DNA of 64,000 bases from Halobellus rufus. Lineage in GTDB: Archaea > Halobacteriota > Halobacteria > Halobacteriales > Haloferacaceae. A program made the translations under genes and the position numbers. The notes beneath the pieces were generated by a model. That model worked only from the letters and a program-made list of their open reading frames with translations, ran no database searches and was not told the DNA's origin. Shown here piece by piece: positions 20,450 through 24,523 of this stretch (the first letter of the stretch is position 1; each line of letters starts with the position of its first letter). The stretch covers positions 62,001 to 126,000 of the forward strand of contig NZ_BBJO01000014.1 in assembly GCF_000739575.1 (NCBI RefSeq). Direction: 5' to 3'.

Positions 20450-20668
20450 TTATCGCATACCGCACGTGTCGACGCCGATGAGAGAGTACAGGCCACAGCG
20501 GCCGGTCACTCCCGTCGCCAGCATCGCGATTGCGATCACTCCGAGAAGGAGCGAGAGGATCGGCGGCGCGGCGACCGCGTTAGCGAGAATACCGATCGAG
20601 ACGAGACCGGCGACGGCACCGGAGGCGATGCGAACGAGGCTGTCCGTTTGACCGACGTTTCGTTCCAT
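20450..20668 (-). CDS. DUF2892 (YgaP-membrane-domain-like) protein
   Basis: A 72-residue protein with two membrane helices (about 15-33 and 37-55). The pattern ERNVGQTDSLVRIASGAVAG ... GVTGRCGLYSLIGVDTC is typical of DUF2892, the membrane part that in some rhodaneses (YgaP) is fused to the catalytic domain; here it stands alone. The conserved GxCxxYxxxGxxTC keeps both cysteines. The ATG at 20668 is chosen over one 8 codons upstream because AATTATG lies 22-29 nt before it as TATA box. Confidence 0.82.
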   Translation of the reverse strand: MERNVGQTDSLVRIASGAVAGLVSIGILANAVAAPPILSLLLGVIAIAMLATGVTGRCGLYSLIGVDTCGMR

Positions 20669-20740
20669 ACTGCAGTATTGGTCTTTCGGCACATAATTGT
20701 TCTTGCCGGTGACCCGTAGCTTGCCGGAGAGTCTCCAGCC

Positions 20741-20915: not shown

Positions 20916-20939
20916 CGTAGCGCCGCCGACGGTGCTACG
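20916..20939 (-). terminator. Hairpin terminator at the end of the hsp20 gene
   Basis: CGTAGC (20916-20921) pairs with GCTACG (20934-20939), extended by three more pairs around a 6-nt loop. The stem includes the hsp20 stop codon. On the minus strand it is followed by T-rich sequence (ACGTTTATTTTAATAAT), so it probably ends the Q-rich/hsp20 transcript. Confidence 0.6.
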
Positions 20940-21420
20940 CCGAACGGATGTCGATCTCGCGGTACCGTTCGCTCGCCTTCTTCGGGACCGTGATCTTACA
21001 CACGCCGTCTTCGAACACGGCGTCGATCTCGTCCATCTCGACGTCCGTCGGGAGCTGGATCGTCCGGTCGATCTGGACGAATCGCTCGTTGACGAGGACG
21101 TTCCTGCCGTCTTCGACCTCCGAGGGCCGTGTCGCGCCGATGTGGAGCGTCCGCGGGTCGCCTTCGAGTTGGATCTCTTCGGGCTTGAACCCCGGCAGGT
21201 CGATGAACACCCAGATCTCGTCGGTGTTCTCGATGAGATCGACAGCGGGAACGGGCGTCACCGGGGGGCTGGTCGCCGCGCCCTGGGTGGGTTCGGCAAC
21301 CGATTGCGACCCCTGCGTCTCGGTGACCATCGCTCCCGGTGTCTGACCGGGTAGCTGTTCGACCGGCCAGCCGCCCGATCCGCCGTACGGCGTCTGCGTT
21401 TCGTACGGTTCTGAAGACAT
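20935..21420 (-). CDS. Hsp20 / alpha-crystallin small heat-shock protein with low-complexity N-terminus
   Basis: A 161-residue small heat-shock protein. Residues 60-150 form the alpha-crystallin domain: VDLIENTDEIWVFIDLPGF, EEIQLEGDPRTLHIGATRP, RTIQLPTDVEMDEIDAVFEDGVCKITVPK; the last part contains the typical A-x-(x)-x-G-V-x-x-x-x-P strand. The N-terminal ~58 residues are rich in Gln, Gly, Pro and Thr (TQTPYGGSGG, TETQGSQS, TPVPAVD). It starts 8 nt after the stop of the Gln-rich protein gene, in the same operon. It probably acts as a holdase; the shared low-complexity composition suggests that its partner or client is the upstream protein. GvpH-like function is an alternative, but no gas vesicle genes are present. 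Confidence 0.9.
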   Translation of the reverse strand: MSSEPYETQTPYGGSGGWPVEQLPGQTPGAMVTETQGSQSVAEPTQGAATSPPVTPVPAVDLIENTDEIWVFIDLPGFKPEEIQLEGDPRTLHIGATRPSEVEDGRNVLVNERFVQIDRTIQLPTDVEMDEIDAVFEDGVCKITVPKKASERYREIDIRSA

Positions 21421-21428
21421 CTCGATCC

Positions 21429-22742
21429 TCACGCTCCCTGGAGCCGAGGGATGCTCTGTTCGATAGAGCCGTTCGTCCGCTGGATCCGGCTCAGGATCTC
21501 CTGTACCTCCGGCTCGTTGGAGTGCTGCTGGAGCTCCTGACTCGCGCCGTTGATGGTCTGCTGGAGCTCTCTGACGGCGGCCGTCGCGAACGGCGACTCG
21601 CGCAGCATGAAGTGCTTCGTCATCTGCGCGCAGTCGTGGACGTCCTCGCACGCTCGCGCCGCCGACCCGTTCCCGCGTTGGGCGAGGCGGGTCTTCGCCC
21701 AGCCGAGCACGTTGTTGAGGTGGTTCAGTTCCTCGACGGCCGCCCGCACTTCCTGCGGGACCGCCTGCTCGTACTGGCCGCCGATGAGCATCGTCTGCTG
21801 TCCGGCAGACGCGCTCGGCTCGGACTGTCCGAGCTGCTGCTGGCTCGACTCCTCGAACTGGCCCGAGATACCCTGCTGCGCCGACTCCTGGCCGAACTGT
21901 CGCTGCGACTGTTGCGGCTGGGTCAAGGGAATCTCCGAAGGCTGAGTCTGCATCGCCGCGGCCGGCTGTGCCTGCATCGTCGAGGAGGGCTGGGTCTGCA
22001 TCGCTGCGACCGGGCTCACCTGTACCGGTTGGGAACCCGTCTGCGACGCGCCGCTGACGGATTCGGGCGTCTGCATCGCTGCCGCCTGTCGCTGGGCCCC
22101 CGGCTGCTGTTGACTCGAGAGCGATTGCGGCTGGGCCGCCGGTGACGGCGCGTACTGCTGCGTCGCGGACGGGAGCGCGGACTGTTGGCTAGCCGGCTGC
22201 GACTGCCCCATCGAACTCCCCGCTTGCGGCTGCGATTGCTGGCCCGCCTGCTGTCCCGCGATCGACTGTTGCGGCTGCGCCTGCTGGAACGGCGACAGCT
22301 GTGACGCCGGCTGCTGGAAGGACTGCGGCGACGCCGCGGGCTGTTGCTGCTGCGGTGACGCAACGGGCTGCTGCGTCGGGATGCTCTGCTGCTGCTGCGG
22401 AGAGGCCGCCTGCTGCGACCAAGCGGCCTGCTGCGGTTGGAACTGCGATTGCTGCTGCGGTTGTCCGGCCGACTGCTCGGGCTGTGTCTGTTGTGGTTGT
22501 GCCTGTTGTGGCTGGACCTGTTGTGGTTGCGCCTGCGGCTGTTGGGTGGGCGACTGAATCGGCAGTTGCGTCTGAACTGACTGTTGCGGCTGCTGGGAAT
22601 ACGCTTGCGGTTGGCCCGCTTGTGTTAGTGGCTGTCCCTGCACGGGCGAGAACTGCCCCCCTGTCGGCTGTCGGGACGGCGACTGCTGATACTGGCTCTG
22701 ATACTCCACCGATGGCGGTTGGGATTGGCTCGGATCTACCAT
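21429..22742 (-). CDS. Gln-rich prion-like protein with C-terminal helical domain
   Basis: A 437-residue protein with two clearly different parts. Residues 1 to about 315 are low-complexity and made almost only of Q, P, S, A, G and T, with runs such as PQQVQPQQAQPQQTQP and MQTQP repeats (AAMQTQPSS, AAMQTQPSE); it has very few charged residues, which is odd for a haloarchaeal protein. Residues 318-437 look like a bundle of amphipathic helices (VPQEVRAAVEELNHLNNVLGW, ARACEDVHDCAQMTKHFML with Cys48/Cys54 of this domain, AAVRELQQTINGASQELQQ). I do not recognise the family. The ATG at 22742 is preferred over one 12 codons upstream. First gene of an operon with hsp20. It could form condensates or assemblies; this is inference from composition. 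Confidence 0.85.
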   Translation of the reverse strand: MVDPSQSQPPSVEYQSQYQQSPSRQPTGGQFSPVQGQPLTQAGQPQAYSQQPQQSVQTQLPIQSPTQQPQAQPQQVQPQQAQPQQTQPEQSAGQPQQQSQFQPQQAAWSQQAASPQQQQSIPTQQPVASPQQQQPAASPQSFQQPASQLSPFQQAQPQQSIAGQQAGQQSQPQAGSSMGQSQPASQQSALPSATQQYAPSPAAQPQSLSSQQQPGAQRQAAAMQTPESVSGASQTGSQPVQVSPVAAMQTQPSSTMQAQPAAAMQTQPSEIPLTQPQQSQRQFGQESAQQGISGQFEESSQQQLGQSEPSASAGQQTMLIGGQYEQAVPQEVRAAVEELNHLNNVLGWAKTRLAQRGNGSAARACEDVHDCAQMTKHFMLRESPFATAAVRELQQTINGASQELQQHSNEPEVQEILSRIQRTNGSIEQSIPRLQGA

Positions 22743-22768: not shown

Positions 22769-23029
22769 ACATCGACAACCTTGACCCGTAGTCAGTATTG
22801 TAATTCAGCGTGTATCAGAATTTCCGGTATCCGTACTGAAACGTTCGCTATCGCGTGTTTTCGCCTTCTCGAACGAAAGCTGAAGTTACTGCTGAAGAGG
22901 AGGTCAGCGACGCCGGCGGATACGTCGGATTACTGTGCACGTGAGACAGCCTACCCCTGTTCGAGTTGTCATTTTGCACCGTGCGACACCGCCGCACGTC
23001 TGGAACGTGAGACCGGAATCCGGAAGCCG

Positions 23030-24310
23030 TTACCCCCACCTGGTCACGGCGAGTGCGCCCGCCACCAACGCGAAGACCAGGACGGGGAGGCTCGGATCGA
23101 AGCCAGACGACGAGGACTCCGGTGCAGCAGTGGTGCTCTCGGTCTCGACTGGCTCCGGCGTTGACGTCGCAGTGGTCGGATCTTCGGTCGTCAGCGTGGG
23201 TTCGAACACGGTGACCGATCGGGTGACGTTGTCCTCACCGGCGTTCACGACCGCGGTGATTTCACCGGTCGTCCACGTGTTGCTCCGGTACTGCAATGTC
23301 ACGTTCGACGTTTCGTTCAGCTCGACCTCGGTCCGCTCCTCGTCGATGAAGTGACCGTCTATCGTGAGTCGAACGGGAGCCGTCCCGGAGATGTCGCCCA
23401 CGTTCCCGACGGTCGCGGTGACGTTCAGCGGTTCACCCGCGGGGATCCGTTCGGGAACGGAAACCGACTCCACCACGAACTCCGGCTCCGGCTGGCGGAA
23501 CTCGACGCGCTCGCTCACGACGTCGTCGGAGGTGTTCGCCGTAATCCGGTGGGCTCCGGCGTCGTCGACCGACGTGTTGAGCACCGTCGACACCGTTGCG
23601 GACTCGCCTTCGGGGAGTTCGACGATCGTCTCGTTGACGGTGTCGCCGTCGAGAGCGAACCAGACGAGTTTCTCGCCAAGATCGTTCCCGGTGTTCTCGA
23701 CCGTCGCGTTCATCCGGACGGTGTCGCCCGCCATAACCGACTCTTCGACGTGCATCTCGGTGATCTCGAAGTGGGGATGCCCGTCGGATCCGCCGGCGCT
23801 GTACCCGCCGGCGTTCCGCTGTCCGCTGTCGGCCTGGGCCGGTTCCTCGATGGTCACCGTCCGCGTGTACCGGTCGTCGGGCGTGTCGACGCGAAGCGTC
23901 CAGTCCTTCACGTTGTCGCTCTTGCTCACGTACGTGAGCGTCACCGTCTCGGACTCGCCGGGCGCTAATTGGAGCTCTGCGTCGTCTTTGTAGTACTCGT
24001 CGAGGTGGAACCACACCTCTTTCTCGCCGGATTCGTCTCCGACGTTTTCGACGGTGACAGTCACCTCTACCGTCTCACCCGCCTTGATCGGCGTGTTCGT
24101 CTCGACGTCCTGTATCTCGAAGAACGACCCGTTTCGCTCCGGTTCGGTGTCGTTGGCGGCGACGTTCGGGTGAACTCGATCCGGCCCGCTCTCCGCTGAC
24201 GTCACGACCGCGGCACCGGCGACAGTCGACCCCAGGGCGACCACCAACACGAGCGCACAGGCGACCAGGACCGACCGCGATACCGACGTTTGTGGTGATA
24301 AGTTGACCAT
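23030..24310 (-). CDS. Surface protein with three CARDB repeats and C-terminal anchor
   Basis: A 426-residue secreted protein: signal/anchor helix (about residues 8-32), then three CARDB-type beta-sandwich repeats (about 60-150, 168-255, 262-350), each with the pattern AGETVEVTVTVENVGDxSGEK / DxVRMNATVENTGNDLGEK / PLNVTATVGNVGDISGTAP. A Thr/Ser/Glu/Pro stalk (TATSTPEPVETESTTAAPESSS) leads to a C-terminal membrane helix ending in RWG. Several NXS/T sequons suggest N-glycosylation. Role: cell-surface adhesion or a structural protein; exact partner unknown. The ATG at 24310 is chosen because an ATACTATT element lies about 28 nt before it. Confidence 0.82.
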   Translation of the reverse strand: MVNLSPQTSVSRSVLVACALVLVVALGSTVAGAAVVTSAESGPDRVHPNVAANDTEPERNGSFFEIQDVETNTPIKAGETVEVTVTVENVGDESGEKEVWFHLDEYYKDDAELQLAPGESETVTLTYVSKSDNVKDWTLRVDTPDDRYTRTVTIEEPAQADSGQRNAGGYSAGGSDGHPHFEITEMHVEESVMAGDTVRMNATVENTGNDLGEKLVWFALDGDTVNETIVELPEGESATVSTVLNTSVDDAGAHRITANTSDDVVSERVEFRQPEPEFVVESVSVPERIPAGEPLNVTATVGNVGDISGTAPVRLTIDGHFIDEERTEVELNETSNVTLQYRSNTWTTGEITAVVNAGEDNVTRSVTVFEPTLTTEDPTTATSTPEPVETESTTAAPESSSSGFDPSLPVLVFALVAGALAVTRWG

Positions 24311-24523
24311 ACGAGTGAAATCCACGTCGTACCGCAATAGTATGCGTTCGTTTGTTGATATATGAGCGTCCTACGCCGAACGCGAACCCCCGCGCACGGT
24401 CCGTCAATGAGCGGTGGTACAGCTAACAAAATCTGGGAGTAGTGAGCGTTTATCCAGCCAAAGGGAGAGAACCTCGGCATAGGTGGAAAATAGCGTCTTA
24501 CGTCTCCTGTCCGAGGCACCGAT

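Follow-up and report, generated by a model that had tools for sequence, protein, structure and literature searches.

The window analysed here is a 64,000-nucleotide (nt) stretch of Halobellus rufus (contig NZ_BBJO01000014.1, positions 62,001 to 126,000), in which a gene for a long glutamine (Gln)-rich protein is followed, 8 nt further 3', by a gene for a small heat-shock protein, Hsp20. We found that the constant unit of this system is a Gln-rich chain encoded in cis with, or fused to, a special Hsp20 subtype, which is marked by a cysteine near the end of its alpha-crystallin domain. We tentatively propose that the two genes are the halves of a split haloarchaeal sequestrase, by analogy with yeast Hsp42, which needs an N-terminal prion-like and disordered extension.

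The Gln-rich frame is truly coding, because there is an excess of substitutions at third codon positions and the insertions and deletions (indels) come mostly in multiples of three. Between the window gene and the corresponding gene of genome G005 the substitutions number 104, 75 and 164 at codon positions 1, 2 and 3, and the third-position excess is seen across five species pairs. In three species pairs every indel has a length divisible by three, and in the two Halobellus pairs 11 of 13 and 13 of 15 do. The two open reading frames (ORFs) and the gap between them lie where an earlier reading, made from the letters of the window alone (the sequence-only reading), had placed them, see Table 1.

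Public annotation calls a hypothetical protein antisense to the Gln-rich gene in Halobaculum limi (NZ_CP120469.1, L190 1917-2849), and another antisense to a Gln-tailed Hsp20 in Salinirubellus (NZ_CP147842.1, L187 4443-5153). Low-complexity genes of this system can therefore be missed.

Linkage of the Gln-rich chain with one Hsp20 subtype

A profile of the paired Hsp20s (A4) was run on 392 Halobacteriales genomes and 70 loci from the top of the list were read, i.e. the first 30 and 40 of the next 42, the second places in two genomes (G105, G323) being passed over. At most nine candidates per genome were scored in this search, and at most twelve in the A8 search described below; the best-ranked matches were listed. 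An ORF was counted as Gln-rich when it contained an 80-residue stretch with at least 20% Gln and at most 12% charged residues.

The residue that follows G-V (once G-M) near the domain end is Cys in 24 of the 70 Hsp20s, and Leu (43), Val (2) or Ile (1) in the other 46. Just upstream of the Hsp20 gene, and on the same strand, a Gln-rich ORF ends in 22 of the 24 Cys-type loci versus none of the 46 others. When counted by a pattern that misses the G-M-C of L246, the figures are 21/23 versus 1/47 (p = 1.4e-14). The two Cys-type Hsp20s that have no such ORF upstream (L209, L224) carry a Gln-rich tract fused to the Hsp20 itself, and so does a G-V-C Hsp20 from a Salinirubellus plasmid (L187); in these three fusions the tract comes first and the alpha-crystallin domain follows. 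A shorter Gln-rich arm is also present on two of the 46 non-Cys Hsp20s (L212 and L218, both G-V-V). Among 1333 six-frame ORFs from 40 fetched regions, Gln-rich ones occur only in L224 and L246. The pairs in G002, G015, G438, Halobaculum lipolyticum and Salinirubellus stand outside the count of 24. With 22 linked and two fused cases over five families, the pair is a conserved unit in other haloarchaea, a point on which the sequence-only reading is borne out.

In a family-level search the window-type Hsp20 was found at E 1e-18 in 8 of 148 genomes, four Halobellus and four Halobaculum, and in all eight a Gln-rich gene with the helical domain described below lies directly upstream on the same strand. 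The two genes are adjacent in six plasmid records of Halobaculum. Searched against plasmid records, a fused query of the L224 type matched Salinirubellus only, and a query with the Hsp20 domain of family f12 matched nothing at E 1e-15. Beyond Halobacteriales, the best-scoring loci of a phylum search (24, two of them still within the order) showed neither a G-x-C motif nor a Gln-rich ORF.

The tract is the constant element, since the folded part to which it is joined can be exchanged. A bundle with the fold of copper storage proteins (Csp) ends seven of the 22 upstream partners (two from Halobellus, four from Halobaculum, and that of G407), and the remaining 15 gave no bundle match at E 0.01, although L208 is truncated at its locus end and L202 is close to a copy of L200. 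Six of these 15, all from f12, have a stretch of about 35 residues in common by eye; in the rest no recognisable feature besides the tract was found. We saw no homologues in which the helical domain and the Hsp20 are kept and the tract is lost, the case that the sequence-only reading had named as speaking against it. The reverse, a tract and an Hsp20 with no detected helical domain, is the situation of the 15 partners above.

The Hsp20 subtype

The window Hsp20 matches PF00011 (E 4.1e-16, 59.4 bits, cut-off 20.8) and stays under the curated cut-offs of NF041799 and NF041800 (Hsp14/Hsp20), scoring 75.4 bits where 100 are required and 41.4 where 140 are. It has G-V-C near the domain end instead of G-V-L, which is a mark of the subtype and does not affect its membership of PF00011. 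In the 55 residues before the domain, Gln, Pro, Gly, Ser, Thr and Ala together make up 73% and charged residues 10% in the 24 Cys-type Hsp20s, compared with 40% and 30% in the 46 others; the composition shared by the Hsp20 N-terminus and the Gln-rich protein, noticed in the sequence-only reading, is thus common in the subtype.

The tree built from the 70 domains puts the 24 Cys-type rows and the two G-V-V rows together with a weak support of 78 and the 44 other domains apart, 43 of them at support 99. Profile A8, built from 20 of the Cys-type domains, gave, among the matches listed for the 392 genomes, 24 with at least 113 bits and the next at 97 and below; the 24 are one per genome, from 12 genera and five families (f1 8, f4 3, f7 3, f10 1, f12 9). 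Twenty of them are themselves part of the profile and the other four score 113-137 bits. To judge by these scores, the Cys-type Hsp20s are a sharply bounded subfamily.

The H. rufus genome has six Hsp20 matches, the window one included. Three of the other five have G-V-L or G-I-L, two have no readable motif, and no Gln-rich ORF was found on the strand of any of the five within loci of about 3 kb.

The Gln-rich tract

Haloarchaeal proteins are usually very acidic, which keeps them soluble in molar KCl. In residues 1-317 of the window protein Asp and Glu make up 2.8%, versus a median of 15.6% in 48 crude gene calls of the window. Gln accounts for 34% of this tract, Ser for 15%, Pro for 14%, Ala for 12%, Gly for 5%, Thr for 4%, aromatic residues for 3.5% and Asn for 0%. 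Twelve residues (3.8%) are charged and an uncharged stretch extends for up to 128 residues, so the long, almost uncharged low-complexity tract of the sequence-only reading is indeed present. Of the window's 397 six-frame ORFs with 90 residues or more, no other has such a stretch.

The label "prion-like", given in the same reading, fits in part. Compared with the yeast-type criterion for prion-like domains, the tract is Gln-rich and low in charge, yet Asn is absent, Pro makes up 14% and its Gln runs do not exceed four. According to its composition the chain is probably disordered. The tract contains imperfect short repeats and its sequence drifts fast between related species. A Gln content of 20-52% and a low charge are common to the 20 partner proteins measured, whose other main residues are Pro, Ala or Gly/His.

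The predicted C-terminal helical bundle

Residues 318-437 form, in the predicted structure, a four-helix bundle of 120 residues with the same fold as Csp, and a Pfam search of the window protein gave no match for this domain. A helical C-terminal domain of about this length had been described from the letters, and a profile and structure search with it had been suggested. The core of a Csp is lined by many cysteines for Cu(I). The window domain lacks such a core, having two cysteines; the domain contains 0-2 in the 12-row clade of the window protein and 13-17 in the DUF326-type relatives.

In an alignment of 19 rows that includes DUF326-type haloarchaeal relatives, D50, R64 and S66 are invariant and R46 and C48 nearly so. 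A single-sequence search with the window domain matches a relative with 15 cysteines (L013, E 5.4e-5), and a protein like the latter (L016) belongs to PF03860 with E 7.8e-9. A profile that includes DUF326 rows (A2) matches Csp3 at E 7e-14. The Cys-poor profiles A3 and A7 alone gave no Csp match, Csp3 being at E 0.35 with A7, and designed helical proteins scored better. For this reason the attempt to prove Csp ancestry by sequence with the Cys-poor proteins was given up, and the case for that ancestry is made by graded intermediates, single-sequence matches and the predicted fold. The bundle is predicted to be a copper-storage-protein fold stripped of its cysteines.

Profile A1 matches 218 of the 392 genomes at E <=1e-4, DUF326 types counted in. 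We analysed 88 regions, the window and 87 fetched ones, excluding three DUF326-type regions (L040-L042), in which no Hsp20 match was found. These 88 regions contain 91 ORFs with a Csp-like domain; the domain has 0-9 cysteines (4-9 in 76 ORFs), and a tail of at least 20 residues with at least 20% Gln is found on one or both sides in 79. The window-type Hsp20 is present in five regions, i.e. the window, three from Halobellus and one from Halobaculum. Because it was not found at E 1e-3 in the other 83, we conclude that the Hsp20 goes with the Gln-rich chain and not with the helical domain as such. A reading centred on the bundle ("degenerate copper-storage protein plus Hsp20") was dropped as the main story on the same ground, and also because neither A1 nor A3 matches 15 of the 22 upstream Gln-rich partners at E 0.01.

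For the stand-alone Gln-tailed Csp-fold proteins no common operon partner was found, and their recurrent neighbours look like lineage-specific synteny. Three loci (L073, L077 and L088, from G215, G211 and G144) have tandem Gln-tailed Csp-fold ORFs, the second of which has a more charged tail and a long branch. In L179 (4850-6010) one Gln-rich chain carries two Csp-like bundles.

Proposed mechanism and alternatives

In the proposed module, the first gene would provide a long, nearly uncharged, Gln-rich disordered chain, and the second an Hsp20 that belongs to a distinct subtype and whose low-complexity arm is compatible; both would co-assemble through their low-complexity parts. When stress damages proteins, the Hsp20 domain would bind clients as they unfold. 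Hsp20 oligomers, or an anchoring domain such as the helical bundle, would make the Gln-rich chains multivalent, and these chains would gather the complexes into reversible deposits. In this way the chain would stand in for the disordered, assembly-forming region that in yeast is on the Hsp42 polypeptide itself, and the few species with both halves on one polypeptide would have the Hsp42 layout. It is quite possible that haloarchaea have here a spatial protein-quality-control or condensate system of their own, in which an Hsp20 subfamily works only with a Gln-rich chain and forms reversible deposits at molar salt.

Several observations weigh against this proposal. The tract has no Asn, few aromatic residues and much Pro, and may for that reason be a soluble spacer and not a sticker chain. 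The 70 Hsp20s compared were ranked by their similarity to the paired ones and were not drawn at random. Among the matches listed, just 24 of the 392 genomes have the subtype, too few for a core stress system, and these genomes are not independent, as they represent 12 genera with eight genomes from one genus (g51). In a search with the Csp-like domain alone, 12 of 16 other genomes of the window's genus have no gene or only an unlinked DUF326 type, and the window-type Hsp20 was not found at E 1e-3 in 83 of the 88 Csp-like-domain regions.

The main rival, which was the view of the sequence-only reading, is that the Gln-rich protein is itself a functional assembly (a condensate, fibre or store) and that the Hsp20 is its dedicated guardian, with no general clients. 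We consider it somewhat unlikely. It agrees with the strict cis-linkage and with a tail whose composition is kept although its sequence diverges, and an oligomer-prone bundle with a low-complexity tail would be a plausible scaffold; however, the fusions in L209, L224 and Salinirubellus place the tract on the chaperone, as would be expected of a working arm more than of a client, and near the related Gln-tailed Csp-fold proteins no such Hsp20 was found in 83 of 88 regions. The composition of the partners, hydrophilic, almost uncharged, mostly Pro-rich and aromatic-poor while their sequences differ, would also be expected of a hydration or desiccation protectant, where the neutral Gln/Pro/Ser-rich chain acts as a shield or volume filler at a salt drop or on drying and the Hsp20 is an ordinary holdase. 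This seems improbable, as a protein that protects in bulk would have no need to be tightly linked to, or fused with, one Hsp20 subtype.

That the Gln-rich protein handles metal, as a descendant of the copper storage proteins, is very improbable given the cysteine counts above (two in the window protein and 0-2 in its clade, versus 13-17 in DUF326-type relatives) and a domain that is undetected in 15 of the 22 upstream partners. The short imperfect repeats and the fast drift could be explained by neutral growth, with the tract a functionless filler made by repeat slippage and the linkage due to shared ancestry alone. To this we give the least credence, since the tract is in cis or fused in all 24 subtype members found, from five families, while the folded part and the surroundings change, and since third codon positions show an excess of substitutions.

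Genomic surroundings and upstream element

The neighbourhoods of the Halobellus and Halobaculum pairs differ, so the pair is kept in differing surroundings. A CARDB protein is encoded upstream in all four Halobellus regions. Proline-synthesis genes (P5CR_dimer, AA_kinase and Aldedh domains) lie downstream in the window, and the downstream neighbours in G015 are unlike these. A YgaP-like membrane domain protein (20450-20692, minus strand; PF11127, E 3.1e-16) is encoded downstream of the window Hsp20. The Halobaculum pair adjoins orc1/cdc6 of a megaplasmid in three annotated records (L188, L189, L190); an orc1/cdc6 gene is also near the pair in L031, identified by Pfam Cdc6 domains, and by eye in L162-L164.

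The four Halobellus pairs all have ATTACAATAC(T/C)G, about 50-70 nt ahead of the start. In the 3.85-Mb H. rufus genome, TTACAATACYG occurs once, at this locus. Of the six Halobaculum regions read, three have ACAATACTGG farther upstream and one more has ACAATAC; the element was not found in the other two, nor in G407. To judge from sequence, the window element ATTACAATACTG is probably a promoter or operator. A different block, GTGAACTATC-like and then TTTAT, is found upstream of the Gln-rich genes of L199, L201, L205, L206, L207, L211 and L213; it is common to several f12 pairs and L211, differs from the Halobellus element, and these blocks look like promoters.

Table 1. Features of the gene pair and its upstream region, in window positions.
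Feature	Position	Strand	Details
CARDB-domain protein	23030-24337	-	upstream of the pair
Upstream element ATTACAATACTG	22793..22804	-	51-62 nt before the ATG; probable promoter or operator
Gln-rich protein ORF	22742..21429	-	ATG start, 437 residues
Gln-rich low-complexity tract	21792..22742	-	residues 1-317 of the 437-residue protein
C-terminal four-helix bundle, Csp fold (predicted)	21432..21791	-	residues 318-437; two Cys (C365, C371)
Hsp20 ORF	21420..20935	-	161 residues
Hsp20 low-complexity N-terminal arm	21241..21420	-	residues 1-60
Hsp20 alpha-crystallin domain, PF00011	20947..21234	-	residues 63-158
Hsp20 Cys141 codon	20998..21000	-	G-V-C motif marking the subtype

Comparison with known systems

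No description of a Gln-rich/Hsp20 pair was found in the literature searched, in keeping with the sequence-only reading, which knew of no described counterpart; a paper on archaeal prion-like domains (Mol Biol Evol 2021) lies outside that search. A word search of a review of archaeal small heat-shock proteins (PMC9133787) gave no occurrence of "glutamine". According to two reviews (PMC13287201, PMC12875662), Hsp42 depends for its aggregase activity on an N-terminal extension that comprises a prion-like region and a disordered one, and this extension is needed to gather misfolded proteins.

If the proposal is true, archaea would have a parallel to Hsp42 in two pieces, whose anchoring domains can be exchanged. 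With its nearly uncharged Gln-rich chain, this conserved system lends itself to testing how low-complexity assembly proceeds when charge interactions are screened. It is also a genetically simple prokaryotic case, in which one gene encodes the supposed assembly arm and another the chaperone, and each can be removed alone. The strict pairing of an Hsp20 subtype with low-complexity sequence yields a rule, open to testing, on the small heat-shock proteins that might organise deposits.

Among the known systems, yeast Hsp42 resembles the pair in that an alpha-crystallin domain goes together with a low-complexity region, prion-like in Hsp42, and its tract-first single polypeptide is the arrangement seen in L209, L224 and Salinirubellus. 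In contrast to Hsp42, the haloarchaeal tract is mostly a separate gene directly upstream, as in the window, the window tract is Gln/Pro-rich with no Asn, and for the haloarchaeal pair sequestration is a proposal. Csp1/Csp3 and DUF326 (PF03860) have the predicted four-helix bundle fold in common with the window domain, and D50, R64 and S66 are shared with the DUF326-type haloarchaeal relatives; the window protein differs by the lack of a Cys-rich core and by the added 317-residue Gln-rich tract. The Gln-tailed haloarchaeal Csp-fold proteins share the Csp-like domain and, in 79 of 91, a Gln-rich tail; they differ in usually having no such Hsp20 nearby and in the 4-9 domain cysteines of 76 of the 91. 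Ordinary archaeal Hsp20s (NF041799/NF041800) have the alpha-crystallin domain as well, whereas the window type is distinguished by G-V-C, by a neutral low-complexity arm and by its place on a separate side of the tree.
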